A stretch of DNA of 64,000 bases from an uncultured Ilyobacter sp. (GTDB taxonomy: Bacteria > Fusobacteriota > Fusobacteriia > Fusobacteriales > Fusobacteriaceae). The stretch lies in contig NZ_OY764864.1 in assembly GCF_963668515.1 (NCBI RefSeq), positions 1,302,001-1,366,000 on the forward strand, written 5' to 3'. Below, in pieces: positions 4,095 to 20,397 of the stretch. The notes under the pieces are model-generated. The model did no database searches and was not told the origin of the DNA. It was given only the letters and a program-made list of their open reading frames with translations. Every line of letters starts with the position of its first letter. Position 1 is the stretch's first letter. The position numbers were made by a program, and so were the translations under genes.

Positions 4095-4130
4095 TGAAAG
4101 GTTCAAAACTTCTGAACCTTTCATCATATT
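4088..4130. terminator. Bidirectional terminator between convergent genes
   Basis: Perfect 18-bp inverted repeat (4088-4105 and 4113-4130) with a 7-nt loop. The stem holds the stop codon of the + strand ATPase gene and the start of the stop codon of the - strand LolA-like gene, so one hairpin can serve both convergent operons. There is no long T run; the T-rich flanks are modest. Confidence 0.75.
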
Positions 4131-4854
4131 AGTTTCTTCTTTCTAAATTTTTAAGGGTGAACACAGATTTGGGGATATCCGGATCGATAATTATATTATT
4201 TAGGATGATTTCCGTGTAGGAGTTTTCTCTTATTTTGTCTTCCATCCTGAATTTTGTTATGTAATATCTATCTCCTATCCACATGGCATCATCTACATAA
4301 AATACCTTGAGAAGCTTCCCAGAAAGGGCATACATCTCGGATCTTATCAGGATATAATTTTCCCTATCCACCTCTATAACCCTTTTGTAGTAGGCCGTGT
4401 CCTGTCCCTCTCTCGCTATTAGCTCGAGAATATAGGAGTTATCTGACTCTTCCAGTATTTTTGAGGTATAGAGGTCTGTGAGATGACTTCTGTCAGTCTG
4501 GTCTTCATAGGATATATCGCTTCCCATCATATTTTGTCTCAACATATGCCCGGAGATTTTCACTGTTCTGTCTGCCTTGGGGAGAAATATCCAAAGATTT
4601 TCACCATTTCTTAAGTACTTTGTCCCCTTGTCCCTCGGTGGTGATGTAAACTCAATAAAAGCCAAGTCCTTCCCCACTGCCTGAATCTCCATATTTTTTA
4701 CAAATTTTTTATTTTTTTTATGGATGATCATCTCTCCATGATATTTTATAGAGCTAGGAGTCATATTGTAGTCCACTCTTTCTAATATCTCTTCTGCTGT
4801 AATTGCAAATAAAAAAACTGGAAAAATCAGATATATAATAAAATATTTTTTCAT
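4129..4854 (-). CDS. LolA-like outer-membrane lipoprotein-sorting protein
   Basis: A 241-residue exported protein with a signal peptide (residues 1-17, ending LFA). The body matches the LolA-like family found beside ABC permeases, including the marker RQNMMGSDISYEDQ and the strand pattern of an open beta-sheet that carries acyl chains. Last gene of an operon with two FtsX-type permeases and a LolD-like ATPase, so it probably takes a lipid or lipoprotein extracted from the inner membrane across the periplasm. It is more like the LolA-like proteins of such clusters than canonical LolA; substrate unknown. Confidence 0.78.
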   Translation of the reverse strand: MKKYFIIYLIFPVFLFAITAEEILERVDYNMTPSSIKYHGEMIIHKKNKKFVKNMEIQAVGKDLAFIEFTSPPRDKGTKYLRNGENLWIFLPKADRTVKISGHMLRQNMMGSDISYEDQTDRSHLTDLYTSKILEESDNSYILELIAREGQDTAYYKRVIEVDRENYILIRSEMYALSGKLLKVFYVDDAMWIGDRYYITKFRMEDKIRENSYTEIILNNIIIDPDIPKSVFTLKNLERRN

Positions 4855-4864
4855 AAAACTCCTC

Positions 4865-6079
4865 CTACCTGCTTCTAAGATTATCCACAGCTTCTTTTTT
4901 TATTTCCGGAGTTACTGTTATAAAAGTTACAAAAACAGATACTATAGATCCCAATAAAAAAGCAAAGATAAGAAGTCTCCAGCTAAAAAACATATAAATG
5001 GTACTCTGAATATTCATAGCATCAGAAACAGTCTCCAAAACTTCTCCAAGCCTTATACCCTTTACTGAAAAATAATATACAATAGTACCTCCTATTACAA
5101 TTCCAAGCATAGATGCAAAAGCCCCTATAAGACCTCCTTCGAGACAGAAAAGATTCCTTATTTCAGAATTTCTCATCCCTTGGGACTTTAGGACTCCGAT
5201 CTCTTTTCTTCTTTCAAAAACCACCATCATCATTGTATTAGTGATACCTATTCCGGAAAGGAGACTCAATATTACAGTGAATATCAATTTTACAACTGGA
5301 AAAACCGATGACATATATTCATTTATCCCTATCTCACTCCAGAGTTTTACCAGATAATTTTTCCCGAGTTCCGATACAAGCATTTTTTTATAATCTTCAG
5401 AGTCCTTTTCTGGCTCGGGATAGAGAAGAAATTCAGTCACCGCCCCGTCCATATCCAACAGGTACTGAGCATCTTTTAGAGTAATATAAAAACTCCTATT
5501 GAGCCGTCCGTTATCCATCTTATAAAATCCGACTATTTTATAATTAAGAGCTGAAATAGACCTGTCCTGGGTAAAAGTAAGGACAGTAACAGACTCTCCT
5601 ATTTCTAATCCGAGTTTCTCTTTTACCTTACTTCCTATTATTATCTCCCCATTTTTTTCAAAGTCTAAAAATCTCCCCTCGTAAATAAAATTATCAAACT
5701 CTATTATCTTTCTGTCCTCTTTTTCAATTCCAACTCCCATGGCTCTCTCGTCTTTATCATGAGAAAAAATCATTGCCCCAAATTTTATCCTTCCAATGGC
5801 AGTTCCCTTAAAATCTTTGAGATATTTCTGAATTTCCTCAGAAGATATATTAGAGGATATATCCAGGGATTTTTCTTTTAGCTGAAAATCCGAAGCAGTC
5901 ACCCTCACAATTCCAGTGAGCTTCTTTCCCTCCTCTGTAAACATTCTTTCCACTCCATATACCCAGCCTAAGCCAACTGTGACTCCCATTATGCCCACCA
6001 TGGTGGAGATCACCGTGAGAAAGGACCTTCTTTTGTTTCTAAATATATTTCTAAAGGCTATTTTCAACATGACCTTCAC
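4865..6079 (-). CDS. ABC transporter permease, FtsX/LolE-MacB family
   Basis: A 404-residue membrane protein: one N-terminal span (residues 17-38) after the RNIFRNKRRSFLT motif, a periplasmic MacB_PCD domain (about 45-260), then three C-terminal spans of an FtsX domain. The cytoplasmic coupling region reads FERRKEIGVLKSQGMRNSEI, typical of LolC/LolE/MacB. It overlaps the upstream permease by 4 nt. Type VII ABC systems use such permeases for mechanotransmission, extracting lipids or lipoproteins rather than pumping through a channel. Confidence 0.88.
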   Translation of the reverse strand: MKVMLKIAFRNIFRNKRRSFLTVISTMVGIMGVTVGLGWVYGVERMFTEEGKKLTGIVRVTASDFQLKEKSLDISSNISSEEIQKYLKDFKGTAIGRIKFGAMIFSHDKDERAMGVGIEKEDRKIIEFDNFIYEGRFLDFEKNGEIIIGSKVKEKLGLEIGESVTVLTFTQDRSISALNYKIVGFYKMDNGRLNRSFYITLKDAQYLLDMDGAVTEFLLYPEPEKDSEDYKKMLVSELGKNYLVKLWSEIGINEYMSSVFPVVKLIFTVILSLLSGIGITNTMMMVVFERRKEIGVLKSQGMRNSEIRNLFCLEGGLIGAFASMLGIVIGGTIVYYFSVKGIRLGEVLETVSDAMNIQSTIYMFFSWRLLIFAFLLGSIVSVFVTFITVTPEIKKEAVDNLRSR

Positions 6080-7269
6080 CGGTCCTTTATAGCTTCTGAA
6101 GGGTCTAATCTTATGGATTTCATCGCAGGATATATTGAAGCAACTGCAGAAAAAAGGATTCCCACAATAAATATAATTAGGGACTTCTCTAAATCAAAAT
6201 AAAGATAAAGTCGATCTGAAAAGGGGATGTTTATTCCTAGGTCGCTACTTTTTATTGCTATTTGTATCCCGTTGTTTTGGTAATATTTAGTGGTTATAGC
6301 TCCAAAAAGAAAGCCTATAAAACTTCCCAAGCTCCCTACAAAGGTACCCTCACCTAGAAAGAGAAGTAAAATTTCCCTGTTATTCATACCATTTGCCATC
6401 ATTATGCCTATCTCTTTTTGACGTTCTAGCATGGCCATGAGCATTGTATTGGCTATTGTCACACCTGCCATGACTAGGATGGTCATGCTTATTATGGCAA
6501 AGGCTTTTCTTCTTATAGAAGTTATCCTAAGTATGTCCTTTATCTCTTCCTGCCAGGGAATAAAATCTATCTGCAGTTTTTTCAGACTTTCAACTTCTTC
6601 ATCAGTCAGTAGAGTTTTTACAGCTATATCATTTACAAAAGGTGTGTCTGCAAATCTATGGGCAAAATCTAGATCGATAAAAATACTGCTGCTGTCCATA
6701 AGGGTGTTCCCGGTTTTTATTATCCCCGTTATAACGAGACTGTATGCGTTTATACTCTGTGATGCAGTTCTTGCTATGAGGGTCACCTCGTCCCCTATAC
6801 CCAGATCCAGAAGCCTTGCCATCTCCAGTCCTATGACCAGTGAATTCTCGTTATCCACAAAGGACCCCTCGACCATGTAATTGTCCCTTTCAAATACCAG
6901 GTTTTCTTTTTGAGATTCGACCCCTATAAACTGAGCTATAAGTTCCTCCCTGCCGTCAGTTATATTCCCCTTAAACAGAAGCCTCTTACTGTAATCTTTA
7001 TTTTTTAGTATTTTCTCTATCTTTTCTAGATTTTCTATGGGATATTCCAGCTGGTCGTTATCATCTTTTTCTAGATAAAAATCCTTACCGTATATCTTAT
7101 AATGGGATGTGTCTGTTTTTATGTAAATATCAGTTATTTGATTTTCCAGCCCTGAATTCAGACCCTCACCTAAAATTGCAAGGTATATCCCCACAATCAT
7201 TGTTATCAAGGTGAGAACAGTTCTTTTCTTATACCTGAATATATTTCTAAAGATCATTTTCAATATCAT
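6076..7269 (-). CDS. ABC transporter permease, FtsX/LolC-MacB family
   Basis: A 397-residue paralogue of the next permease, with the same one-plus-three membrane topology. It has an N-terminal RNIFRYKKRTVLTL anchor, a periplasmic MacB_PCD domain, the coupling segment LERQKEIGIMMANGMNNREI and a final span ending SIYPAMKSIRLDPSEAI. It overlaps both neighbours by 4 nt. The two permeases probably form a heterodimer like LolC-LolE. Confidence 0.88.
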   Translation of the reverse strand: MILKMIFRNIFRYKKRTVLTLITMIVGIYLAILGEGLNSGLENQITDIYIKTDTSHYKIYGKDFYLEKDDNDQLEYPIENLEKIEKILKNKDYSKRLLFKGNITDGREELIAQFIGVESQKENLVFERDNYMVEGSFVDNENSLVIGLEMARLLDLGIGDEVTLIARTASQSINAYSLVITGIIKTGNTLMDSSSIFIDLDFAHRFADTPFVNDIAVKTLLTDEEVESLKKLQIDFIPWQEEIKDILRITSIRRKAFAIISMTILVMAGVTIANTMLMAMLERQKEIGIMMANGMNNREILLLFLGEGTFVGSLGSFIGFLFGAITTKYYQNNGIQIAIKSSDLGINIPFSDRLYLYFDLEKSLIIFIVGILFSAVASIYPAMKSIRLDPSEAIKDR

Positions 7270-7949
7270 GATGAGTCACCCTCTTTGATTCCGTCTCGAA
7301 GCCTTATAACTCGTTTTGCTTTTTCAATTATTTTGAGATCATGAGAGGAAAAAATAAAGGTTATATTGTGTTCCTCATTGAGTTTTTTCATCATTGCAAG
7401 AATGGACTCACCTGTCACACTGTCTAGGTTTGCCGTAGGTTCATCTGCCAGTATAATACTTGGTTTTTTTACCAGAGCCCGGGCCACTGCAACCCTTTGC
7501 TGCTGCCCCCCGGAAATTTCAGAGGGCCTTCTGTCTCTTAGTTCATAAATATCCATCTCTTTTAAAATAGTTTCCACCATCTCTTTCTTTGTGCCTTTAT
7601 CGTAAGTCCCTAGAAGGTCTAGAGAAAACTCCACGTTCTCATATACTGTCAGCACAGGAATAAGGCTGTAGTCCTGAAATATAAACCCTATCTTTTCCCT
7701 CCTAAAATTTGAAGCATCCTTAGGTTTTAAAAGGGAAAGGTCAACTCCGTCCACCACAGCCTCGCCAGAGGTGGCTCTGTCCATAGCCCCTATAATATTT
7801 AAAAGGGTAGTCTTTCCTGACCCTGAAGGTCCAGCCAAAACTGTGAACTCACCCTTTTGAATATCAAGACTTATGCCATTTAGAGCCTTAACTTCTAGAG
7901 CACCTTTTAGATAAATCTTTTTTATATTTTTAAGACTCACTATAGCCAT
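7266..7949 (-). CDS. ABC transporter ATP-binding protein, LolD/MacB family
   Basis: A 227-residue ATPase of the LolD/MacB/FtsE subfamily. Walker A is GPSGSGKTT, the signature is ISGGQQQR, Walker B is IILADEPTANLD and the switch His is in SSHD. It overlaps the first permease gene by 4 nt and follows the beta-barrel gene by 12 nt, so all five genes look co-transcribed. It powers the FtsX-type permease pair. Confidence 0.92.
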   Translation of the reverse strand: MAIVSLKNIKKIYLKGALEVKALNGISLDIQKGEFTVLAGPSGSGKTTLLNIIGAMDRATSGEAVVDGVDLSLLKPKDASNFRREKIGFIFQDYSLIPVLTVYENVEFSLDLLGTYDKGTKKEMVETILKEMDIYELRDRRPSEISGGQQQRVAVARALVKKPSIILADEPTANLDSVTGESILAMMKKLNEEHNITFIFSSHDLKIIEKAKRVIRLRDGIKEGDSS

Positions 7950-7961
7950 CCTCTGCCTCCT

Positions 7962-8936
7962 CTAAAAAAATCCTTGGATCTCAAAAACCACTTCACTGTC
8001 TAACTCTTCTTCGTAGGAGTATTGGTACAAACCCCTAAAATTATTATAATAATTATAAGATACCTGAATATTGAAATAATCATTTAATTTACAGGTAAGG
8101 CCTGACCTCACATAGAGATAGCTTATTTTCCCGTCTACGAGTAAACTCTGAAAAACCTCTATGTCTTCACTGACCACATAGTTGTATCTGAGATAAAGAG
8201 CAACTATGTCTTCCTCTTTTATATATATGGTCTCTGCCAGGGTATATAGTAGATTTCCCGCTAGATCAAAGCTGTAGTCTCCTCCTAACACAACTGCATT
8301 CTGGTCTAGCTCATCTGATTCTCTGTGTATAAGCTGCGACCAGATTCCTATGCCGGCATCTCCCTTTACCTCCAGTACCACATCTTCATTCTTGACTGCT
8401 TCTCCCACAAAATTTCTTTTGTCATAATGAAAATAATTTGCCATGAATTCATAGTTGTCCACCAAGAAAGTGTAACGGGCCCCTATATTGTCATCCCTGG
8501 CTGTGTTTTTAAAAATTACCCCTTCAAGACGGGACATATTTTCTAAATTATATTTCATCCTCATTGAATCGATCCCGTCCTTATCACTTCTAGGATTTTC
8601 GAGATCAACTTCATTAAAAACATCTGCTCCATTGAAAATATAGGCACTTCCCCAGACTATCATCTGCCGACCTGCACTAAAGGTGGTAGAATCACCATAG
8701 AGTTCGAAATAACCTCTATACAACTTTAGGTATTTCTCTGAATCATCAGTAGCCTTTAGAGATACCTGTGAATAAAAATTCTCCTCCTGATGCTCTGCTC
8801 CTAATATAAGCTCTATAGAACCGTAGCTGCTATTGTAAGATTTAAATCTTTGGGTCCCCTCTACCTCCCCAAAGTAATCTAGCGAGAAAACTTCAGAAAA
8901 AATAATTAAAAACATAAAAACATATAATCTTTTCAT
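7962..8936 (-). CDS. Predicted outer-membrane beta-barrel protein
   Basis: About 324 residues from the ATG at 8936, preferred over an upstream in-frame GTG or ATG because it gives a clean signal peptide (MKRLYVFMFLIIFSEVFS) and a GGTGGGG ribosome site. The mature part is made of short alternating strands rich in Tyr and charged residues, and ends in Phe-Phe as many outer-membrane barrels do. The segment GRQMIVWGSAYIFNGADVFN resembles DUF1302-type barrel proteins, which often accompany lipid-export systems. First gene of the LolCDE-like operon, so it may be the outer-membrane end of that pathway (inference). Confidence 0.7.
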   Translation of the reverse strand: MKRLYVFMFLIIFSEVFSLDYFGEVEGTQRFKSYNSSYGSIELILGAEHQEENFYSQVSLKATDDSEKYLKLYRGYFELYGDSTTFSAGRQMIVWGSAYIFNGADVFNEVDLENPRSDKDGIDSMRMKYNLENMSRLEGVIFKNTARDDNIGARYTFLVDNYEFMANYFHYDKRNFVGEAVKNEDVVLEVKGDAGIGIWSQLIHRESDELDQNAVVLGGDYSFDLAGNLLYTLAETIYIKEEDIVALYLRYNYVVSEDIEVFQSLLVDGKISYLYVRSGLTCKLNDYFNIQVSYNYYNNFRGLYQYSYEEELDSEVVFEIQGFF

Positions 8937-9026
8937 CTGTTTTCCCCACCTTTTCAAAAGAATAAAAATTCCCGCTCTCATTTATTCTATTCTGACTTAT
9001 AAATAAATTCCTTTGACCCTTTAAAT

Positions 9027-10421: not shown

Positions 10422-11408
10422 CTACCAAATATACTGTACTCCAATCAAGGCAAGAAAATAAATACCTGAATCTGTACTAGAACTGCTATCAGAAACATTC
10501 TTTTTATAGCCATATCCAGGGAGTCCTATTTTAGAAAAAACTCTTAAATTTGGATAAAACTCCTTTTTATAAAGTAAATGGGGATATAAAGTAAGTTCCG
10601 CCGTATAATCCTGACTTGTACCCCCTATAAACTTATCTACATCCACCTCTGTTTCAAAGCAAAAGGCCCAGTTTTCAGTATACTCATAGGTCCATCTGGT
10701 TATGCTCTCTAATGCCAAAAGATACGTCCCCTCATATCCTCTATAATCATAATATTCATTATAAAGGGTATTGAAAGTCTGCCATCCATATCCCCAGTTT
10801 GTAGCTGTGAGAAGATTGCCTTCAAGGGAATATCCATCCCTTCCAGTAATAAATACCTTCCCCAACCAGAAATCAAGGCCCCAGTAAGTACCTCCCATTC
10901 CTATGTCGGTATCGGTTCTTACTCTGTATCTCAGGGCAAGTTCATTTTTTTCATAGTTTCCTCCGCTTTCATCAGGAAGTCCTAGCTGATTATACTCCCA
11001 CATAAATCCAAAATCTGTACCCCATATCTTATCTGCGAAATTATGGTAACCTGTATCTTTTACAAAACCCACAAGACTATCCCATCCATTATAATTCACG
11101 CTCCCGTTTCCCAAATCATCATCAATATAGAATTCACGGTCTGTATCATATTCAAAATCCCATTTTTTATCCAAAGCGATATAGCCCAGGGCTATTTTCC
11201 ACTCCACCAGTGAGTAGTCTGCATCATATTCATAGCTTAAGTAATGCCTTATACTATTCTGCTCCGATACAGATTCATAAAAATTGAGCACATCAATACC
11301 TCTGTTTTTTCCTACAAAACTTCTTTCCTCTAGTACCAACTCATCTTTTGAAAAGGAGGTCAGAGACATTAAAAATATCAAAAGAAATATACTTTTCACT
11401 CTACTCAC
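10422..11408 (-). CDS. Predicted outer-membrane beta-barrel protein of the pel operon
   Basis: A 328-residue protein with a signal peptide (about residues 1-20, ending SFS). The mature region consists of many alternating aromatic/polar strands (for example YHNFADKIWGTDFGFMWEY and ENWAFCFETEVDVD) and ends in IGVQYIW, an aromatic C-terminus typical of barrels recognised by the BAM complex. Its start overlaps the pelG-fusion gene by 8 nt, so it is translated as part of the pel operon. No TPR region like that of PelB is present. By position it may be the polysaccharide exit pore; the sequence alone does not prove this. Confidence 0.72.
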   Translation of the reverse strand: MSRVKSIFLLIFLMSLTSFSKDELVLEERSFVGKNRGIDVLNFYESVSEQNSIRHYLSYEYDADYSLVEWKIALGYIALDKKWDFEYDTDREFYIDDDLGNGSVNYNGWDSLVGFVKDTGYHNFADKIWGTDFGFMWEYNQLGLPDESGGNYEKNELALRYRVRTDTDIGMGGTYWGLDFWLGKVFITGRDGYSLEGNLLTATNWGYGWQTFNTLYNEYYDYRGYEGTYLLALESITRWTYEYTENWAFCFETEVDVDKFIGGTSQDYTAELTLYPHLLYKKEFYPNLRVFSKIGLPGYGYKKNVSDSSSSTDSGIYFLALIGVQYIW

Positions 11409-14094
11409 CTACATACCTCCCCTCTCTGCCAAATCCATTTCTGTCAATTCCTGAGGAGTTGTATCCCCTTCGGTCATATCCAACTTTATCATAGCCGTTT
11501 ATATCATAGCCTTTAGAATCATATAGTGTTCCTGTAAGTATATGTGTTGTATCATTTTTCCATCCAGCTTTACTGTAACTTTTACCGGTAGTTTTGTGTA
11601 GCCCATTCCTATCAAAACCAAGGGTATCATATTTTGTACCTGTTATTTTGCTTACCCCACGGCTGTTCCATCCGTATTTATCATACCGGGTACCTGTTTC
11701 TTTATTTATTCCTCTCACATCAAATCCATAATAATCATACCTGGTGCCTGTTCCTTTAAAGATACCTTTCCTACTCCATTCTGCCCTGTTATATCCATCA
11801 GAATCAAATCCCCTCTTATCATACCCACTTTTATCATAACCTTCTTTATTGTACCCCCTAACATCATAATAATCTTCCGTCTCTGAATTCAAACCATACC
11901 ATGTCCAGCCTTTAACATCATATTCTGTTCTTGTATTTTTATTAATCCCCTGAGGATCAAATCCAAGAAGGTCATATTTTATTCCTGTTTTATTATGAAT
12001 CCCTTTAAAATCAAAACCTCTCTCATCATATTTCGATTTTGTTGCTAGGTTATATCCGGCTTTGTCAAAGCCTCTATAGTCCACAGTGGTGCCGGTGTAT
12101 TTAAACACCCCATTCTCATTCCAACCTTCACGGTCAAATCCCTCGGCATCCTTTCCTTTCCTGTTATACCCCTCTTTGTCATATCCCTGTATGTTGTACC
12201 CCAGGTAATCATAGTATTTTCCAGTGTCTTTGTTTACATCGTACTTGTTCCATCCGGCTTTGTTAAATGCCGTTCCAGTATCTCTGTGAATCCCCTCTCT
12301 CGTAAACCCATCTTTATTATATACTGAGTCTGTCTCACTACTACAGCCGGAGACATCGAACCCCTCTTCATCAAAGGATGTCCCTGTCACAGAATGATTT
12401 CCAAAGAAATTAAATCCATAGTAATCATAGGGTGAGTCTGTGAAAACATTCCAGCCTAAAGATGTAAAGCCTCTTCTGTCTGCACCATCAGAATTATAAC
12501 CCTGCATATCATAACCACTGAGATCATAGGTACTCATGCTATGCCAGTTATGCTTTGTTATCTCATTAAATCCTCTTTCATCATATCTAGAGCACCCATT
12601 CAAGAATCCAGACAAAAGTATAATAACTATCACAGACAGATAACCTTTTCTGCTCAGAAACTTGTCCAACATATCTATAAGAGGACTACCTATTACACTT
12701 TTAAAATTTTGCCTGTAAAAAGTGATATAGGTGATATTTTTAAAAAGTTTATCTAATAAAACATTTGCAAACAAAAGAGTTATAAAGGAAGAGAGAAAAA
12801 ACCCTAGCCCAGTATATTCATTTCCAAATTTTACAAAATAAAGAGAAAATAAAAGATCTGTTATAAAAAACACAAAAGACACCATAAGAGCTTGTATCCT
12901 AGCATCAAAATATAAAAATATAGTTATGATCATAGATATAAACACAGCACAAAAGGCTGAAAAAAGTGATATCCTAAATAGATCCAATAGATACAGATCC
13001 AGTCCAAAATTTTCAAATATCAATTTGGAAAGAAGTGCCAAGGATATACTTATGAAAAACTGCATCTCCATGCAATAAAACATCTCTCTCTTTAATACAT
13101 CCATCATTGTAGCCAAACTTTTGTCTATATCATCTAAAGTTCCCTTATAAGATATATGGGCATAATAGGTTTTATAGTCTGGGAAAAATTTAGTTTCTAA
13201 AAAAACAACAAAATATACCATACTTGGAATAGTTATGAAGAAGGCGTAAAATAGTGCCACTTCATAAAAAGGTGAAGCCGTAAAAGTCCCGGCAATTATA
13301 TAATGGTCTCCCTTTGTCCAAACAATAAAAAGATGAACCCATATTCCCAATATATAGAATAATCCCATAAAAAAAAGAGAGGAATAATTCTTTAAATACT
13401 TTAAAAATCCGAACTCAGTACCCCCTCTTTCCTTAAAGGCTGAAAGAAGATAATAGGACAAAAGCAGAAAAGTCAGAAGTATTCCCATTGTATAGGCAAA
13501 AATAAGATTGGTAGCCAAAAAGTTTTCCGGAAAATCAATTGGGTTTTTTATGAGATAGAACCCCAAAACCATTGCCAGAAGATTTCCTGCAAAGTAGGAA
13601 AAAGCCACAAATCTATAGTTTTTTAATACGTTAACAAAACACATCCCTATCCACGATGCAGATAGTAGAGTAAAAAGAATCACAGCCATTTTTTTATAGT
13701 AAAACGGAAGTGGAGAATTACGAAAAAACCAGCTTCCAATTATAAATGCCATTATGATTATTATTTTTATTACTCCTATATATGTTTTTCTCAGCTCGTC
13801 ACTTCTCTTTTGATAGATGCAGTCTGACATATACCTCGTTACCACATACTGCCATGGGGTTGCCAGTAACTGAGAAAATATAAAACAGTAGAGTACCGTA
13901 GACATAAACAGTACCCTCTCATCTCTTATAGATATATATTCTCTCGATATAAACATAAGAAAATTCAGACTCACTGTTGTGATCAGCCAAGGTCCTACAC
14001 TTACAAGAGTGGAATAGGCTATGGCTTTAAGATCTCCAAGGGTACTGTTACTTTTTGAGAATAACTTTCTAAATTCAAATCCTATTCCTGCCAC
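11401..14094 (-). CDS. pelG: PelG-like polysaccharide transporter fused to a C-terminal repeat domain
   Basis: An 897-residue protein, about twice the usual PelG length (about 456). Residues 1-460 are a PelG-type multi-span flippase: the start MAGIGFEFRKLF, the VGPWLITT helix and the ATPWQYVVTRYMSD region match the family. Residues 481-500 form another hydrophobic segment ending LSGFLNGC, with Cys501 in a lipobox-like context. Residues 503-890 are hydrophilic Gly/Tyr/Asp repeats. The frame is continuous, so this is a fusion and not two genes. An internal ATG (residue 475) has no clear ribosome site. PelG moves Pel polymer across the inner membrane with PelD, PelE and PelF. Confidence 0.85.
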   Translation of the reverse strand: MAGIGFEFRKLFSKSNSTLGDLKAIAYSTLVSVGPWLITTVSLNFLMFISREYISIRDERVLFMSTVLYCFIFSQLLATPWQYVVTRYMSDCIYQKRSDELRKTYIGVIKIIIIMAFIIGSWFFRNSPLPFYYKKMAVILFTLLSASWIGMCFVNVLKNYRFVAFSYFAGNLLAMVLGFYLIKNPIDFPENFLATNLIFAYTMGILLTFLLLSYYLLSAFKERGGTEFGFLKYLKNYSSLFFMGLFYILGIWVHLFIVWTKGDHYIIAGTFTASPFYEVALFYAFFITIPSMVYFVVFLETKFFPDYKTYYAHISYKGTLDDIDKSLATMMDVLKREMFYCMEMQFFISISLALLSKLIFENFGLDLYLLDLFRISLFSAFCAVFISMIITIFLYFDARIQALMVSFVFFITDLLFSLYFVKFGNEYTGLGFFLSSFITLLFANVLLDKLFKNITYITFYRQNFKSVIGSPLIDMLDKFLSRKGYLSVIVIILLSGFLNGCSRYDERGFNEITKHNWHSMSTYDLSGYDMQGYNSDGADRRGFTSLGWNVFTDSPYDYYGFNFFGNHSVTGTSFDEEGFDVSGCSSETDSVYNKDGFTREGIHRDTGTAFNKAGWNKYDVNKDTGKYYDYLGYNIQGYDKEGYNRKGKDAEGFDREGWNENGVFKYTGTTVDYRGFDKAGYNLATKSKYDERGFDFKGIHNKTGIKYDLLGFDPQGINKNTRTEYDVKGWTWYGLNSETEDYYDVRGYNKEGYDKSGYDKRGFDSDGYNRAEWSRKGIFKGTGTRYDYYGFDVRGINKETGTRYDKYGWNSRGVSKITGTKYDTLGFDRNGLHKTTGKSYSKAGWKNDTTHILTGTLYDSKGYDINGYDKVGYDRRGYNSSGIDRNGFGREGRYVGE
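11410..12588 (-). repeat. Coding repeat array: YDxxGFDxxG and TGTxYD units
   Basis: In the C-terminal half of the PelG fusion, pentads of the form G-[YFW]-[DN]-x-x alternate with roughly 20-residue units such as GINKETGTRYDKYGWNSRG. Pure pentad runs occur near GYDKEGYNRKGKDAEGFDRE and GYNKEGYDKSGYDKRGFDSD. There is almost no hydrophobic core beyond the regular aromatic residue, suggesting an extended or solenoid structure. I recognise no named family with certainty. Confidence 0.8.
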
Positions 14095-15515
14095 TGTTTA
14101 TCACCCAACTCTCTATATATCTTTCTGTAACCTTCGATAAAAATTTCTCTGGAATAATATTTTTCTACTATTTTTTTTCCATTCTCTCCCATCTCTTTTA
14201 ACCTGTCTCGGCTGTGGTACATCTTTACAAGTGAATCTGCAAGATCCACATATGATGTAGGAGGAATTATGACTCCAGCCTCACCTATTTCCACTTTCCC
14301 TGTTAGTATCTCCCTGCAGTTTCCTACATCTGTAGCTATGAATGGTATTCCTGCAGAAAGGCCCTCTAATATGCTCAAGGGCTGCCCCTCCGATATTGAG
14401 GTCAATAATAAAAGGTCTAAAAACTTGTAATAATCAGTCACATTTACTTTTCCCGTAAATTCCACATAATCTTCCATCTCAAGATTTTTAACCATCTGTA
14501 CACACTCTTCATAGTACTCTGGGTTTTCATCTATAGGTCCTATCAGGTAGAGTTTTGCGTTCCTTAGTTTCCTAAGGGCCACACGGAATCCCTTTAGCAT
14601 CATCTTTACATCCTTTATAGGGACGACTCTCAAGATAGCCCCTATACTAAATGTCTCTTTTTTTTCAAAATCAAGATTACCGAAGCTATCCTTATCTATT
14701 CCATTTGGAATAACCAAGCATTTTGATGGGTCTGCCCCGTTTTTTATCTGAAAATTTCTGTTATAGTCAAATAAAGTAATTATGACATCACTATATTTAT
14801 AGGTTATTTTAGAAAGAAAGTAAAAGAAGTCTATCCATATACTTTTGAAACTTTTGTCCACCCACTGGGCATGCACTATCTCTTCCTCCCTCTCTCTTGG
14901 ATATATCCCGTGTTCAGTGAGGACTATCTTCCCCTTTCCCCTATACCCTGCCATAGCTGCTATAACACCTGCATACCCTGTGGCGACAGAGTGGTAAATA
15001 TCTGCTTCAGGTATCTCCTCCTGAAGAATCCCAATTAAATTTAAAAAAATATTTCTATAGGTCCAGTAATATATATTGTAGTTGGTGTTGCTGAAATTTT
15101 CCCTATAATTTCTCAAAAGTGGATTCCAAAATATCTTGCTCACAACTACTTCCATGGGATTTCCGTATTCTTTTCTAGAAAGACTGTCAAGGATTTCAGC
15201 GGACTTTTCCACAGATGCCTCTCTGAAGTTCATTAAGTTAAAAAGTTCCTCCTTAACCTTATCTTTTCTAATATAATTATTTTTAAATATTCTGAATCCG
15301 GTTACAGGGAGATCCGGATTCAGGGTTATATTTTTAACCTCCTTTATATTATCTGGAAGCTCATATTTTGAAACGGCAAATTCCTTGTTTGGAATAATAC
15401 ACAGTATAGAAAATTCATGTTCCTTATTCAAATTTATCAGGTCCTGTACCCACGAAGATACTCCTCCCACAACATAGGGATAAGAACCCTCACAAATCAA
15501 GCATATTTTCGCCAT
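14082..15515 (-). CDS. pelF: PelF glycosyltransferase (GT4)
   Basis: About 477 residues. The N-terminus MAKICLICEGSYPYVVGGVS carries the PelF hallmark of a GGVSSW nucleotide-site loop. The C-terminal GT-B half has the GT4 E-x7-E pattern in SILEGLSAGIPFIATDVGNC. The second ATG (15515) is chosen because AAGGAG lies 9 nt upstream; the ATG at 15521 is too close to it. PelF is the cytosolic polymerase that builds Pel from nucleotide-sugar donors. The gene overlaps pelE (upstream) and pelG (downstream). Confidence 0.92.
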   Translation of the reverse strand: MAKICLICEGSYPYVVGGVSSWVQDLINLNKEHEFSILCIIPNKEFAVSKYELPDNIKEVKNITLNPDLPVTGFRIFKNNYIRKDKVKEELFNLMNFREASVEKSAEILDSLSRKEYGNPMEVVVSKIFWNPLLRNYRENFSNTNYNIYYWTYRNIFLNLIGILQEEIPEADIYHSVATGYAGVIAAMAGYRGKGKIVLTEHGIYPREREEEIVHAQWVDKSFKSIWIDFFYFLSKITYKYSDVIITLFDYNRNFQIKNGADPSKCLVIPNGIDKDSFGNLDFEKKETFSIGAILRVVPIKDVKMMLKGFRVALRKLRNAKLYLIGPIDENPEYYEECVQMVKNLEMEDYVEFTGKVNVTDYYKFLDLLLLTSISEGQPLSILEGLSAGIPFIATDVGNCREILTGKVEIGEAGVIIPPTSYVDLADSLVKMYHSRDRLKEMGENGKKIVEKYYSREIFIEGYRKIYRELGDKQWQE

Positions 15516-16413
15516 CGCCATACGCTCCTTTTATGTCGTTTCTAAGATGATAGGGCATCTCGAGTCCATTTTTTATAAACCTTTCTTTCATCTGTATTAT
15601 TTTTTCATACCAGTTCTTTTCATAGTAATATTCCAGGGCAAAATTAACTACCTCTGCATCAGGTTCCTCTTCTTCTAAAAGTCTCTCCAAATGAATCTGA
15701 CATTTTTTATCGTCCATATTTTTATAAAACTCTAGAAGTTTTGCAGCATAGCTTTTATCCTTATCAAAAAGAGTTTTTAAAGTATTAAGAGCTTTTTTCT
15801 GAGCTATGAGTAGTACATCTCCCTTTAAAAGACCTGATTCTATATAGTCATTATAACTTTTAAAAATTTTATCTAAATCCCCACTTTGATCAGTCTTTTG
15901 TATGTTAATCCCGTGCTTTTCATAGATCCAGTTTAATTCCGTAGCGGCATAATGTATCACATCTATATCTTCATCTAAAAGGGCCTTTTCTAGGACCTCT
16001 ACCTTAAAGCGTTCATCAGGAGGATTAAAGTTTATCAAAAATCTTTTTTTCTCTTCTGGAGTCCCTGTGGCAAGTATATCAAAGGCTCCCATTGTCCCGA
16101 GCTCCACCGCCAGATCTATAAACTTTACCTCTCTTCTGTTCTTAAGATATCTTTCAAAATCTGAACTTTCCTCTATCATCTGATAATCAAAATCCAGTCT
16201 GGGAATAAGTTCTATAAAGAGTAGTCCTCCGAAACCCATAACTGGAAAAAGGAAAATAAAAAGATCAAAATAATATATGTCCTCATTAAAAAAAATATGG
16301 TTTATTAAAAGAAAAATTAAGCCAAGGCCTATATGAAAATACCAAAATTTTTCCAGTGGACGCCTAAGACTATAAGTAAATAAGTATGAGTCTAAAAAGG
16401 TAGCTAAAATCAA
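15490..16413 (-). CDS. pelE: PelE-like membrane protein with helical-repeat domain
   Basis: At least 307 residues: two or three membrane spans in the first 75 residues, then a soluble all-helical domain with TPR-like pairs (for example near EVVNFALEYYYEKNWYEKI). This matches PelE, which bridges PelD, PelF and PelG at the inner membrane. The start is uncertain. The TTG at 16413 has no good ribosome site. The open frame extends upstream to 16443 as IKKRWIFILILILATF, a natural first membrane segment, but only ATA or ATT could start it. The nearby ATG (plus 16431-16433) is out of frame and gives a 20-residue dead end. Confidence 0.72.
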   Translation of the reverse strand: MILATFLDSYLFTYSLRRPLEKFWYFHIGLGLIFLLINHIFFNEDIYYFDLFIFLFPVMGFGGLLFIELIPRLDFDYQMIEESSDFERYLKNRREVKFIDLAVELGTMGAFDILATGTPEEKKRFLINFNPPDERFKVEVLEKALLDEDIDVIHYAATELNWIYEKHGINIQKTDQSGDLDKIFKSYNDYIESGLLKGDVLLIAQKKALNTLKTLFDKDKSYAAKLLEFYKNMDDKKCQIHLERLLEEEEPDAEVVNFALEYYYEKNWYEKIIQMKERFIKNGLEMPYHLRNDIKGAYGDGENMLDL

Positions 16414-16439: not shown

Positions 16440-18272
16440 TTATAATCCTTCACCTCCCAGTATTATATGTGATTTTTCAGCATCAAACTTCACAAGATAA
16501 AGGTTATCTTTAGCAGTCTTTTCAATTAGCTGAAACTCTCCATTTTCAACATCTTTAATCCTATTACCTCTTATTCTCACAAAGGTGTTTACCGGACCTC
16601 TATAATTATTAAAATTAATTTTTATAATATTCTTTATTTTCTCATGATCTATAACTAGCCCTTCCATCTGCATATACTTAAGAGTTGCGTCACTCTGAAC
16701 ATCTGCATCTAAGAATGGAAAATGAATATTTATCTGTGAAAATATCTTTTCATACTCTTTTTTCAGCTGCTCCCAGGATTTACCCTTGCCTCTCTCCTGA
16801 TCTGTAATATCATCAGGATGTACAAAATGACTAACACAACCATAGGCTCCTATGGCATTGTATATACTCCACATTAGATCCTCGCTGTAGTGGAATCCTG
16901 CAGAAAACCTAGGCAGACTGTAAAGCTGCGGGTAGTCTGGATCTCTTCCTACTTCCTGCAAAAGTAACCCAGGCTCATAATCTCCCATATAAATTCCGGA
17001 AATTGATTTTAGTTCAGGCAGAGCAGCAATCAGGGCTTTTTTTCCATCTTTTGTTATAATATTACTTGGTGGCACATAAGAAAATATTTTTACTTCCTCA
17101 CCGTAGAGGTCCTTGGTCAGATCTTTTAGTTTTTCAAGGGAAAAAATCATATCCTCTATCCCTGTCCAGGGGATATAACCATAATCCTCAAAATTCATAC
17201 CACCCTCTAAAACCAGGGAAAAGTGATTATATCCGTGGAAACCTAGCTCTCCCTCATCTTGAAAAACTTCCCGCCCAAAATATCCTGTTGTTTCTCTTAA
17301 CTTCTCTGTAAAATCTACAATTTTTCTTTTATCTGTGGCATCGGTGTAATCCCCTATTATAAAAGTGGTGTATCGAAGCTTCTCTCTCTGAGCTATAGAC
17401 TCCATGTCAGGCCACCATACTTTTTTAAAGAAATTAATATTATTCATATTATATTCTTCATGAATTTTTTTATTGTCCCCAGAAGGTATCGGTGCTGGAA
17501 AATCATCAATATGAGCTATCTTGGAGTTGAACACCGGCATTATGAAATAATCATTTCCGTAGGCTATAAGCTGAGTCAGAAGCCCCCGAGTCGTGTTCCC
17601 TTCAAACATTGAAGTATTGGAATATATTATTCTTCCCTTTCCGTAAGGGATTTCCCAGATCAAGGGGGTGTCATCATCAGACGCAACTATAATCTCTGCA
17701 TCAGGAGAGAGGTTTAGCTTTAATGAAGACCCCGATATAAATTCACCACTTGGTTTTGTAGTTTCCATTCCCGGAAAAAAACTTGTATAAAACTTAATCC
17801 CTGACGTCTCTGTAAAACCATCAATGTTCAGTATCCCCCCCATGGAATTAAAGGGACTTTTAAAGGATCTTTCCAAAACAATGAGGTTTCCCCCATCTTC
17901 GATGAATTTTTTTATACCTAAAAAAACTTCTTTTCTCATTCCTGTAAAATCCTCTGCTACAATTATCACACTGGAATAACCAGATATTTCTCCTTGATAG
18001 CCATTTATCTTTTGACTGTCATGTTTAGTCTTTGTAAATTCAAAAACTTTATTTAGATTATATAAAATCTCCCTAGTTCCTATACCGTCTTCACTGTAAA
18101 GAAGAAGCTGTTTTTGGGGATTTTCTATATTCAGATCACCCTTTTTACCTTCAGGTACAATAAAATCCCTTTCCTGCTTTAAAGTAAAGTATGTGGGAAG
18201 TTTCTTTACACGAAAATACTGAAGCCCCAGTGCAGTTATAAAAGTAATCAGCATAAAATATTTAAATTTCAT
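16440..18272 (-). CDS. DUF2194 polysaccharide deacetylase, PelA deacetylase module
   Basis: A 610-residue protein with an N-terminal signal anchor (about residues 4-20). Residues 50-250 form a glutamine-amidotransferase-like domain (for example FIEDGGNLIVLERSF). A carbohydrate-esterase-4-like deacetylase follows: HIDD at 254-257 gives the metal and catalytic Asp pair, and GFHGYNH at 344-350 supplies the metal His residues. DUF2194 proteins replace the deacetylase half of PelA in many non-proteobacterial pel clusters. It would partly deacetylate the polymer outside the inner membrane. Overlaps pelD by 11 nt. Confidence 0.85.
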   Translation of the reverse strand: MKFKYFMLITFITALGLQYFRVKKLPTYFTLKQERDFIVPEGKKGDLNIENPQKQLLLYSEDGIGTREILYNLNKVFEFTKTKHDSQKINGYQGEISGYSSVIIVAEDFTGMRKEVFLGIKKFIEDGGNLIVLERSFKSPFNSMGGILNIDGFTETSGIKFYTSFFPGMETTKPSGEFISGSSLKLNLSPDAEIIVASDDDTPLIWEIPYGKGRIIYSNTSMFEGNTTRGLLTQLIAYGNDYFIMPVFNSKIAHIDDFPAPIPSGDNKKIHEEYNMNNINFFKKVWWPDMESIAQREKLRYTTFIIGDYTDATDKRKIVDFTEKLRETTGYFGREVFQDEGELGFHGYNHFSLVLEGGMNFEDYGYIPWTGIEDMIFSLEKLKDLTKDLYGEEVKIFSYVPPSNIITKDGKKALIAALPELKSISGIYMGDYEPGLLLQEVGRDPDYPQLYSLPRFSAGFHYSEDLMWSIYNAIGAYGCVSHFVHPDDITDQERGKGKSWEQLKKEYEKIFSQINIHFPFLDADVQSDATLKYMQMEGLVIDHEKIKNIIKINFNNYRGPVNTFVRIRGNRIKDVENGEFQLIEKTAKDNLYLVKFDAEKSHIILGGEGL

Positions 18273-19479
18273 AGAAATCAGCCTCTATACCTTGGAACAG
18301 AGTTGCTATTTTTTCCATTAATAGCTCTTTACTAGCTGCAGTTGTGGCAGGGAAAAGTATTCTTAACCTCACATCATCCATTGCTATAAAGTCACTCTCA
18401 CGAACCTTTCCTTTTATCATCTCTGCAACCTCCTCTGGTGTGACTCCTTCAAGTTTGGTTTCAAAGACCATGAAATCCATATCCAGAAGTTTTTTCCTTC
18501 TCTCCTCTTCAAGCATAATTTTATTAAAATATCCCATGGTAAATATCCCTGTATTTCCAAGAGAGTTTTCTTTTATCTCTTTTTTCTCTTTGACAACTGC
18601 CTCTGATAAAGCTTCATTTAGCCAGTGGGTTATTATCTTAAACATCTCATAACTGTACCTCTCGCTGGCTTCAAGACTCATTCTTTCTATATTTATAAAT
18701 CCTAAAATTTCATTATTATTTCTGATGGGGGAAACAAAAACCGGAGAATCCCCCTCTATATCAAGGGGAAATTCCATGGTAGCTCCCGCTTTTATAACCT
18801 CACTGAATACACTGTTCTCTTTTACTTGTAGAAATCCTGGCATTCGTCCGTTTCCTGCTCTTAATATTAGCCTCATAAAATTCTTCTCAAGATTAAAGCT
18901 GTAAATAGACACCACATCACATTCTAAAAACTGTCTCATTATAAGTACTGCTTCTGTGTATATCTGTTCTACACTCATATTTTTAAAAGATGACTTTATC
19001 TGGTTCAGAGTCAGTATACTCTCACGACTGCTTATTATTCTTTTTTTCAGCCTACTGTTTACGGTGATAAGTTTGACATTATTTTCCTTTTGTTTCTCAT
19101 AGTCCTCTCTGGCTTTAGAAACCTCTTCCTCTAGATACATTATCCTTTCATCAGTGGTATCTCTCAGTTTCCCTAGAAAAAGTGCTGTAAAGAAAAACAT
19201 CAAGATAAATTTATAATATTCAAAGCTTGAAAAAAATATGATCATATCCCTTCCCAGTCCTATATAGGATAAAATATAGTAAATTATAGAAAAAGAAACT
19301 ACAAATCCGCTCATATAGGTTCCGTACTTAAGTGATATCACTGCTATCACAATCAAAAAGGGATGCAAGTTCATATTCAAAAAACTGTATTTAAAGGAAG
19401 AAAAATAAAAAAATACAAGATAAACTGCCGTGGTGTACAATAAACTCTCTGTAAAACAATTAAAAGTTTTGCTTTTCAT
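18262..19479 (-). CDS. pelD: PelD c-di-GMP receptor
   Basis: A 405-residue inner-membrane protein: four spans within residues 12-105, a coiled coil (about 108-150), a GAF domain (about 165-300) and a degenerate GGDEF domain (about 305-405). RESD at residues 360-363 occupies the I-site (RxxD) position, five residues before where GGDEF should be; there the sequence reads AMDDVRL, so cyclase activity is lost. This is the PelD layout: c-di-GMP binding switches on Pel synthesis. An AAGGAG ribosome site lies inside the end of the upstream gene, 3 nt away. Confidence 0.9.
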   Translation of the reverse strand: MKSKTFNCFTESLLYTTAVYLVFFYFSSFKYSFLNMNLHPFLIVIAVISLKYGTYMSGFVVSFSIIYYILSYIGLGRDMIIFFSSFEYYKFILMFFFTALFLGKLRDTTDERIMYLEEEVSKAREDYEKQKENNVKLITVNSRLKKRIISSRESILTLNQIKSSFKNMSVEQIYTEAVLIMRQFLECDVVSIYSFNLEKNFMRLILRAGNGRMPGFLQVKENSVFSEVIKAGATMEFPLDIEGDSPVFVSPIRNNNEILGFINIERMSLEASERYSYEMFKIITHWLNEALSEAVVKEKKEIKENSLGNTGIFTMGYFNKIMLEEERRKKLLDMDFMVFETKLEGVTPEEVAEMIKGKVRESDFIAMDDVRLRILFPATTAASKELLMEKIATLFQGIEADFYEI

Positions 19480-19482
19480 AAT

Positions 19483-20397
19483 TTACTCCTTTTCCTCAAA
19501 AAACCTATAGGTGTCCACCGTATCCAAAAAATACCCGTCAAAGCCTGCAGAATCTATTTTTTTCTGATAATCCTTACTTATTTTTTTCCAAGCGGGATCC
19601 CAGTATTTCACAATATAATTTCCCTTCCAGTTGGGATTTTCCTTTTCTATCCATCCAGGCAAAATTTTACTCCACTGCTTTTTCCAGTATCTCCTATAAT
19701 TTTCTGCCTCGCCTATACTAAAATATGCCACGACCAGTCTTCTAGATCCATTTTTCTTCCTTTTCAATCTTTCTACCTGAGATCTGCTGAGAGCTTTCCC
19801 CATATGGTCGGCGTCTATTATAAGGAGGTCATAATCCAAATTTTCCAGTGTTTTTATAAAACTTTCAGCACTCTTAAATTTTTCAGGATTCAGCAGGCAT
19901 AAAAAATTTTCCACATCTTCTAAAGACTTTACACTCTTATTGTTAAAGCCCAACAAGGGTTTATAAATTGAATTTAGCTCATATGTATCGAAGCTTTCCC
20001 CTATAAAGTCATATTTTTTTATATATTTTTTTATTTTCTGCTTGTTCCACATTCTGTCTGTATATTCTATCAAGAGAATCTTTTTATTTTTTTTCCTTAT
20101 TCCTATGAGTTCTTTTAAAGTCTGTTGAATCTGCTCAGAAGTATTTTTTTTGTTGTAAGCTCCTTCACCGTAAAAAAGCGATTCCCGGGATATTCCGTCT
20201 ATTTTTGATAATAATTTTTCATCTGATTTTTTGTCCTTGTAAAACAGTTCTGTACTATTTTGCACTATGATAATTTTACCCTCTTCAGATCTTTCCCTTA
20301 TCTCCCCTATAAAATTTATCATCTCTTTCCTATAATCTATATCCTCTCCACTGCTGGGTAGAAAGATAGAAAACATAAGAATAAATAAAATCAGCAT
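19483..20397 (-). CDS. GH114-like glycoside hydrolase, PelA hydrolase module
   Basis: A 304-residue exported protein with a signal peptide (1-16, ending PSSGED) and an AAGGAGGG ribosome site. The C-terminal half carries the endo-alpha-1,4-polygalactosaminidase/PelA hydrolase landmarks: SIGEAENYR (Glu near 230-232), YWDPAW (265-270) and FDGYFLDTVD (Asp 292 and 295). The first 160 residues are an extra domain I do not recognise. First gene of the pel operon. In the family this enzyme cuts Pel, which is rich in galactosamine residues. In other bacteria hydrolase and deacetylase are often one PelA protein. Confidence 0.82.
   Translation of the reverse strand: MLILFILMFSIFLPSSGEDIDYRKEMINFIGEIRERSEEGKIIIVQNSTELFYKDKKSDEKLLSKIDGISRESLFYGEGAYNKKNTSEQIQQTLKELIGIRKKNKKILLIEYTDRMWNKQKIKKYIKKYDFIGESFDTYELNSIYKPLLGFNNKSVKSLEDVENFLCLLNPEKFKSAESFIKTLENLDYDLLIIDADHMGKALSRSQVERLKRKKNGSRRLVVAYFSIGEAENYRRYWKKQWSKILPGWIEKENPNWKGNYIVKYWDPAWKKISKDYQKKIDSAGFDGYFLDTVDTYRFFEEKE

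Follow-up and report, generated by a model that had tools for sequence, protein, structure and literature searches.

Why should PelG, the flippase of the Pel exopolysaccharide system, end in a lipobox and a long repeat domain? The question is raised by a pelG open reading frame (ORF) of 897 amino acids (aa) in a stretch of 64,000 nucleotides from an uncultured Ilyobacter sp. of the Fusobacteriaceae (assembly GCF_963668515.1, contig NZ_OY764864.1, positions 1,302,001 to 1,366,000; hereafter the window). The initial annotation had described a fusion of PelG, a lipobox-like segment and repeats at 11401..14094. This architecture was borne out by the PelG family match, by Cys501 and by the repeat statistics, but the strand has to be corrected: the ORF runs on the minus strand from a GTG start codon at 14094 to 11401, and the plus-strand frame over these positions is riddled with stops. 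Comparison with related loci indicates that pelG has probably been joined with the next lipoprotein gene, with the internal signal peptide kept, and that the single ORF is predicted to give a flippase (~58 kDa) and a repeat-rich lipoprotein (~46 kDa) by a cut at Cys501. The direction of the change would have been fusion rather than fission.

The flippase part is a complete PelG, with a match to Pfam family PF16933 over residues 1-459 (460.6 bits against a cut-off of 29, E=7.7e-138), a MOP/MATE fold and the expected gene context, in which PelF and a DUF2194 protein were recognised by profile, PelD weakly and PelE by position. The core is followed by a linker, the stretch RKGYLSVIVIILLSGFLNG, Cys501 and 396 repeat residues. 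The segment carrying the cysteine at residue 501 ends SVIVIILLSGFLNGC, and RKGYLSVIVIILLSGFLNGC agrees with the pattern Lx[GAS]C closing a hydrophobic stretch behind positive charges. The signal is internal (residues 484-501), and an N-terminal lipoprotein signal was found only in split homologues. In the predicted structure, one helix spans residues 484-501. The tail gave no match in Pfam or NCBIfam, but its repetitive nature is evident: the 396 residues behind Cys501 contain 36 [YF][DN]xx[GA] motifs where chance predicts 1.9 (2,000 shuffles of these residues never gave more than 7) and seven TGTx[YFV][DN] motifs where it predicts 0.01 (never more than 2). Spacing between glycines peaks at 5, 18 and 36 residues. 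When the repeat domain was modelled alone, the predicted local distance difference test (pLDDT) score was 90.5, and the model had no match in the PDB. One Lgt homologue and two LspA homologues were found in the genome itself.

The junction between flippase and repeats was compared in 80 fused PelG sequences, 77 of which had a readable repeat start (P0008, L031 and L033 have no readable YD start) and gave 57 distinct strings. The lipobox cysteine is kept in 47 of the 57; two of these 47 (L037/P0028 and L038) have an AxA-like site in addition. In eight others the lipobox gives way to an AxA-like site for signal peptidase I (seven found by script, L054 by eye), which in the seven stands right before the repeats, as in GGKANA-AYD and GHKAYA-AYD. 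Such an exchange between signal peptidase sites inside a single clade is expected under selection for cleavage; an anchor requires neither motif. Cysteine is otherwise scarce: the 69 distinct tails, counted from residue 521 on, have five in 19,015 residues. Directly behind the lipobox cysteine, at position +2, the 47 junctions have Thr (22), Ser (19), Ala (3), Asn (2) or Ile (1), and never Asp. In E. coli, the rule for sorting to the outer membrane is that no Asp stands at +2.

PelG matches were obtained in 26 of 98 Fusobacteriota genomes, 24 of them above the Pfam cut-off. The repeat tail is in frame with PelG in 18 of these 24 genomes (including G078, where the PelG core is interrupted); it is a separate gene ~20 bp downstream of pelG in four, all of one genus, and PelG has a different tail in the remaining two, G041 (which matches Hypnocyclicus thermotrophus) and G040. 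Two other genomes of the window's own genus keep the fusion, with tails 84-85% identical, and fused proteins also occur among isolate and metagenome proteins, among the matches listed (120 of 417, and 120 of 569 in a further listing). The repeat tail alone was matched in 33 of the 98 genomes, some of them without PelG, mostly by short, weak matches. The YDxxG repeat domain, which has no Pfam family, was also seen fused to kinase, helicase and other domains, including in a TM7 protein (P0033, P0040, P0045, P0107, P0116 and others).

The four split loci are informative about the origin of the tail. Their separate repeat proteins (304-359 aa) have a lipoprotein signal of their own at the N-terminus, for instance MKYIWIIIITILISGC-TSYDEKGFN, which the fused junction of L035, ...KKIYMVLVFISMIFLTGC-SSYDNRGFN, resembles, and separate gene and fused tail have a common YDxxGFN...NWHSM start. 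An unrelated separate gene for the repeats, which the initial annotation had named as a finding that would speak against a true fusion, is not what these genomes have: the separate gene is homologous to the tail and adjacent to pelG. The alignments comprised the window PelG with 45 PelG proteins (A2) and the window tail with 37 proteins (A3). In the PelG tree, built by a quick method with midpoint rooting and with branch support from the Shimodaira-Hasegawa-like approximate likelihood ratio test (SH-aLRT) only, the 18 fused repeat rows form one branch (support 99) beside the four split rows. The tree leaves out L053 (a fragment at a contig end), L054 (interrupted pelG) and L055 and L056 (the same loci as L034 and L051). 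In L054 (10208-12906, genome G078), the flippase part of pelG is interrupted and the frame of the repeat tail is open.

A second fusion at the same place was found in the Bacillota. Bacterial genomes were scanned with the PelG core, and the best 80 of 537 loci were evaluated; 56 of the 80 encode proteins of at most 500 aa (about 455-500), with the extra helix in none of them. These served as the control, and they agree with the statement in the initial annotation that PelG usually has about 456 residues and no tail. Seventeen loci, all from Bacillota, encode PelGs of 1029-1041 aa, every one with an extra helix ending in a lipobox cysteine (LSAC, LTAC, MSGC and similar, the last lipobox of each sequence being taken) and then a long tail; the other seven loci have other lengths, three with the extra helix. 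The hosts of the 17 are Paenibacillus, unclassified Paenibacillaceae, Brevibacillus, Psychrobacillus, Solibacillus and Rummeliibacillus. All three of the tails tested matched CotH (PF08757) with 213.7-224.8 bits, against a cut-off of 23.8. This cargo is unrelated to the repeat domain of the window and is fused behind PelG at the same place.

Here too, split counterparts exist. In the family around one such fusion, 148 sampled genomes contained 27 full-length PelG frames, 16 of at least 1037 aa and 11 of at most 521 aa, as judged by length and not by CotH content. At 12 short-PelG loci of related Paenibacillaceae (10 distinct), a separate CotH gene with its own N-terminal lipobox signal directly follows pelG; these are seven of the 11 short frames together with L064, L065, L080, L082 and L088. 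The lipobox was identified by script in 11 of these loci, where the Shine-Dalgarno match is 5-6 bases, and by eye in L088. The 17 CotH fusions form their own branch in the PelG tree (support 100), distant from the 18-row branch of repeat fusions. Accordingly, the same gene boundary has been joined at least twice, with the lipoprotein signal kept each time. C-terminal extensions, which the initial annotation had proposed to look for among PelG homologues, occur as repeat tails in Fusobacteriota and as CotH tails in Bacillota. A planctomycete PelG of 883 aa (L108, 7001-9649) has a long acidic tail, in which no lipobox was seen.

We propose the following sequence of events. The twelve helices of PelG would leave its C-terminus in the cytoplasm, and helix 13 would insert in the manner of a signal peptide, with its N-terminus inside and its C-terminus outside. 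Lgt would then lipidate Cys501 and LspA would cut ahead of this residue, after which the repeat domain would travel to the outer membrane. Its Tyr- and Asp-rich repeats may there bind the emerging polymer and pass it to the beta-barrel-like protein encoded next door, a job like that of PelC. In a Leptotrichiaceae-like lineage, an in-frame, Shine-Dalgarno-like GGAGG with TTG or GTG directly before the signal may let ribosomes start the exported part separately.

The predicted cleavage at Cys501 into flippase and lipoprotein is well supported by the comparisons and is the likely reading. It was one of two branches set out in the initial annotation, and it is favoured by the split homologues with their own lipoprotein signal, the conserved lipobox, the exchange for AxA-like sites and the separate parallel in Bacillota. 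In the other branch the protein stays whole: as transmembrane segment thirteen, the helix would keep the repeat domain on the periplasmic side next to the PelG exit, where this domain would guide polymer across the periplasm. This we regard as unlikely, even though PelGs of the split genus end after one extra C-terminal helix without a cleavage motif and an extra helix is also seen in P0123, P0124 and L057, so that a thirteenth helix is possible in PelG for its own sake; the modelled helix also reaches residue 501, and three human MATE1 entries (9r1f, 9r10 and 9r1g) align with PelG beyond residue 500. A plain anchor needs no cysteine, yet the lipobox is present in the large majority of fused junctions and in all 17 PelG-CotH proteins, its losses are mostly made good by AxA-like sites, and the split homologues bear lipoprotein signals at their N-termini. 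Very unlikely is a cytoplasmic repeat domain behind a helix that is merely part of the flippase. The same repeats are indeed fused to helicase and kinase domains elsewhere, but the charge pattern and the twelve-helix topology place the tail outside, and the split homologues as well as at least six other repeat proteins, picked by eye (P0126, P0128, P0152, P0172, P0203 and P0228), begin with lipoprotein-like signals. That the fusion is an error of sequencing or assembly, or that the gene is decaying, has practically no probability left. One relative (G078) does have an interrupted pelG; the frame is nevertheless intact in 18 fused pelG genes from 17 genomes of two families, and its conservation in same-genus genomes and in isolate and metagenome proteins shows that the fusion is genuine and no frameshift error. 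The artefact or decay reading is refuted by this conservation.

Internal translation initiation, which would make the gene a nested pair instead of a polyprotein, appears improbable. It draws on five of five loci of family f4 (L037, L038, L040, L042 and L054), taken as Leptotrichiaceae from P0022 (uncultured Leptotrichia), whose junction is identical to that of L054. In these loci, GGAGG is followed after seven bases by TTG or GTG and a Lys codon, a start that would give a full signal peptide. Four of the genes have TTG, which accounts for 8-18% of their Leu codons, and the fifth has GTG, at 28% of its Val codons; rows of the protein alignment with the Gly-Gly motif have Leu or Val at the place of the start codon. 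The five loci are related, however, and GGA is their commonest Gly codon (47-66%), so that GGAGG is partly a consequence of the Gly-Gly pair and the signal is suggestive, not proof. In the window, the sole candidate ATG (residue 475) has no Shine-Dalgarno sequence and is replaced in Ilyobacter polytropus (L032), and neither the window nor its two nearest relatives have an internal start with at least four Shine-Dalgarno bases. L043 has no ATG, GTG or TTG in the region at all, and outside f4, L047 is the one fused locus with a match, of four bases, ahead of GTG/ATG. The internal starts of the 17 PelG-CotH genes have at most three Shine-Dalgarno bases, and five of the genes have no candidate, against five or six bases in the 11 split CotH loci.

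Several observations weigh against the cleaved polyprotein and the role proposed for its exported part. Two of the 57 junctions (P0016 and P0053) have neither a lipobox nor an AxA site, the window's own lipobox has Asn at -2 (LNGC), and the tail of the Hypnocyclicus-type PelG is without a lipobox; the PelGs with a plain extra helix belong here as well. At three Clostridia loci (L059-L061), the N-terminal hydrophobic stretch of the separate CotH lacks a lipobox, and next to the pelG of L068 no CotH was matched. Members of the repeat family also occur on proteins without a visible export signal, e.g., helicases and kinases, and the polymer-guiding role is suggested by composition and gene neighbours. 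Among the matches listed in the literature searches, there was no bacterial many-helix protein with an internal signal cut by signal peptidase II. Finally, deletion of SIR_1594, a separate pel-linked CotH of S. intermedius, reduced Pel and aggregation while Pel was still made (PMC12345266; here and below, papers cited by PMC number are represented by the available part of their text). Secreted partners linked to pel can thus matter and yet be non-essential.

The pel genes of the window form a tight operon in the order GH114-like hydrolase, PelD-like protein, DUF2194 deacetylase, PelE-like protein, PelF, PelG with its tail and beta-barrel-like protein (Table 1). From its position, the DUF2194 protein is read as PelA-DA-like. 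The start of the beta-barrel-like gene overlaps the pelG stop by 8 bp, and of the 25 Fusobacteriota pel loci fetched, 21 have a homologue, the complete members having Trp or Phe as their last residue. In the Hypnocyclicus-type PelG (L031, 9142-12240; L033, 4198-7359), an Asn-rich linker leads to a tail that by eye is beta-barrel-like and ends in Phe; no homologue of the outer-membrane protein was found beside pelG in these two loci. Among the nine operon-region genes scanned against Pfam and NCBIfam, no pelB or pelC was recognised, and no PelB search of the genome itself was made; one PelC-like query (from L131), run with no positive control, had no match in the genome. Adjoining the operon is a Lol-type set (4129-8981, minus strand) of a LolA_like protein (PF17131), two FtsX/MacB permeases, an ABC ATPase and an outer-membrane-like protein, with the same gene lengths and order in both same-genus relatives (L030 and L032).

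Table 1. Parts of the pelG fusion, genes of the surrounding operon (window coordinates) and loci of the Bacillota fusion type
Feature	Position	Strand	Description and basis
PelG flippase core	12718..14094	-	Residues 1-459; MOP/MATE-like fold
Linker	12646..12717	-	Residues 460-483; positive RK shortly ahead of the hydrophobic stretch; sequence and junction alignment
Hydrophobic helix	12595..12645	-	Residues 484-500; read as h-region of an internal lipoprotein signal peptide, end L-N-G; hydropathy, model and likeness to N-terminal signals of split homologues
Cys501 codon	12592..12594	-	Lipobox cysteine, predicted Lgt/LspA site; lipobox Cys in 47/57 distinct junctions
YDxxG / TGTxYD repeat domain	11404..12591	-	Residues 502-897; predicted exported lipoprotein part; repeat statistics, separate lipoprotein gene in four genomes, model
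GH114/TM1410-like glycoside hydrolase	19483..20397	-	First gene of the operon; Pfam PF03537 E=1.5e-14, TIGR01370 below cut-off
PelD-like membrane protein with GAF domain	18262..19479	-	Weak GAF_3 match below cut-off; synteny
PelA deacetylase-like protein (DUF2194)	16440..18272	-	Pfam PF09960 E=3.6e-101
PelE-like protein	15490..16413	-	Position/synteny; no confident family match
PelF glycosyltransferase	14082..15521	-	NCBIfam NF038011, 339.8 bits, cut-off 100
Outer-membrane beta-barrel-like protein	10422..11408	-	Candidate exit channel; 328 aa; signal peptide by eye; no confident family match
PelG-lipobox-CotH type loci (17)			L062, L063, L066, L067, L070, L071, L075-L079, L084, L085, L089, L097, L098, L104

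More tentatively, at a little under an even chance, PelG may be a recurrent carrier, to whose C-terminus at least two phyla have fused a pel lipoprotein gene with the internal signal kept. It would then be a signal-peptidase-processed polyprotein in which the flippase delivers an export-partner lipoprotein in fixed ratio, with a nested start adding partner copies in the Leptotrichiaceae-like lineage, and the repeat domain, a solenoid without a known structural match, would take the role of PelC. If true, this would be a bacterial polyprotein cut by the lipoprotein signal peptidase that arose in two phyla at one and the same gene boundary. It would also name a candidate periplasmic partner for Pel export in Fusobacteriota, where the operon genes scanned gave no recognised pelB or pelC. 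The fusion bears on whether signal peptidase II acts on an internal signal behind twelve transmembrane helices, and on how a Pel-type polymer may leave diderm cells without PelB and PelC. Several fused proteins are labelled merely 'exopolysaccharide Pel transporter PelG' in the source databases, and proteins so named would, if this is true, be two products.

The architecture is a variant of the known Pel system and not a new system. Its likeness to the PelG of P. aeruginosa and B. cereus extends to the full-length Pfam match, the fold and the gene order with PelF and the PelD-, PelE- and PelA-deacetylase-like genes; the B. cereus protein has been described as a 12-helix bundle (PMC13254593), to which the window protein adds the lipobox helix and the repeat domain. 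In F. nucleatum, the pelG operon is induced under putrescine scarcity (PMC12826042). Our literature searches agree, within their limits, with the initial annotation that no PelG of this form has been described, and literature on CotH and PelG, judged by title, abstract and part of the text, held no description of a PelG-CotH fusion. Gram-positive pelDEADAFG operons include an accessory cotH (PMC7112168), i.e., a secreted CotH encoded beside pel, which the Paenibacillus group fuses to PelG behind a lipobox helix. In the available text of the two papers on such operons (PMC7112168, PMC12345266), these are separate genes and no fusion is mentioned; the cargo in the window is the repeat domain and not CotH. 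P. aeruginosa PelC is a lipoprotein that forms a ring on the PelB barrel (PMC12141448). The window tail is likewise predicted to be a lipoprotein, and its place of action would lie between export across the inner membrane and a barrel in the outer membrane, but it has a repeat domain instead and is encoded inside pelG. The fusion also resembles fbcH, in that a single ORF encodes a membrane protein and, behind an internal signal peptide, an exported one. The cytochrome b/c1 polyprotein encoded by fbcH of Bradyrhizobium is cut by signal peptidase I; its products are cytochromes, whereas the PelG fusions mostly carry a lipobox and have two distinct cargoes.

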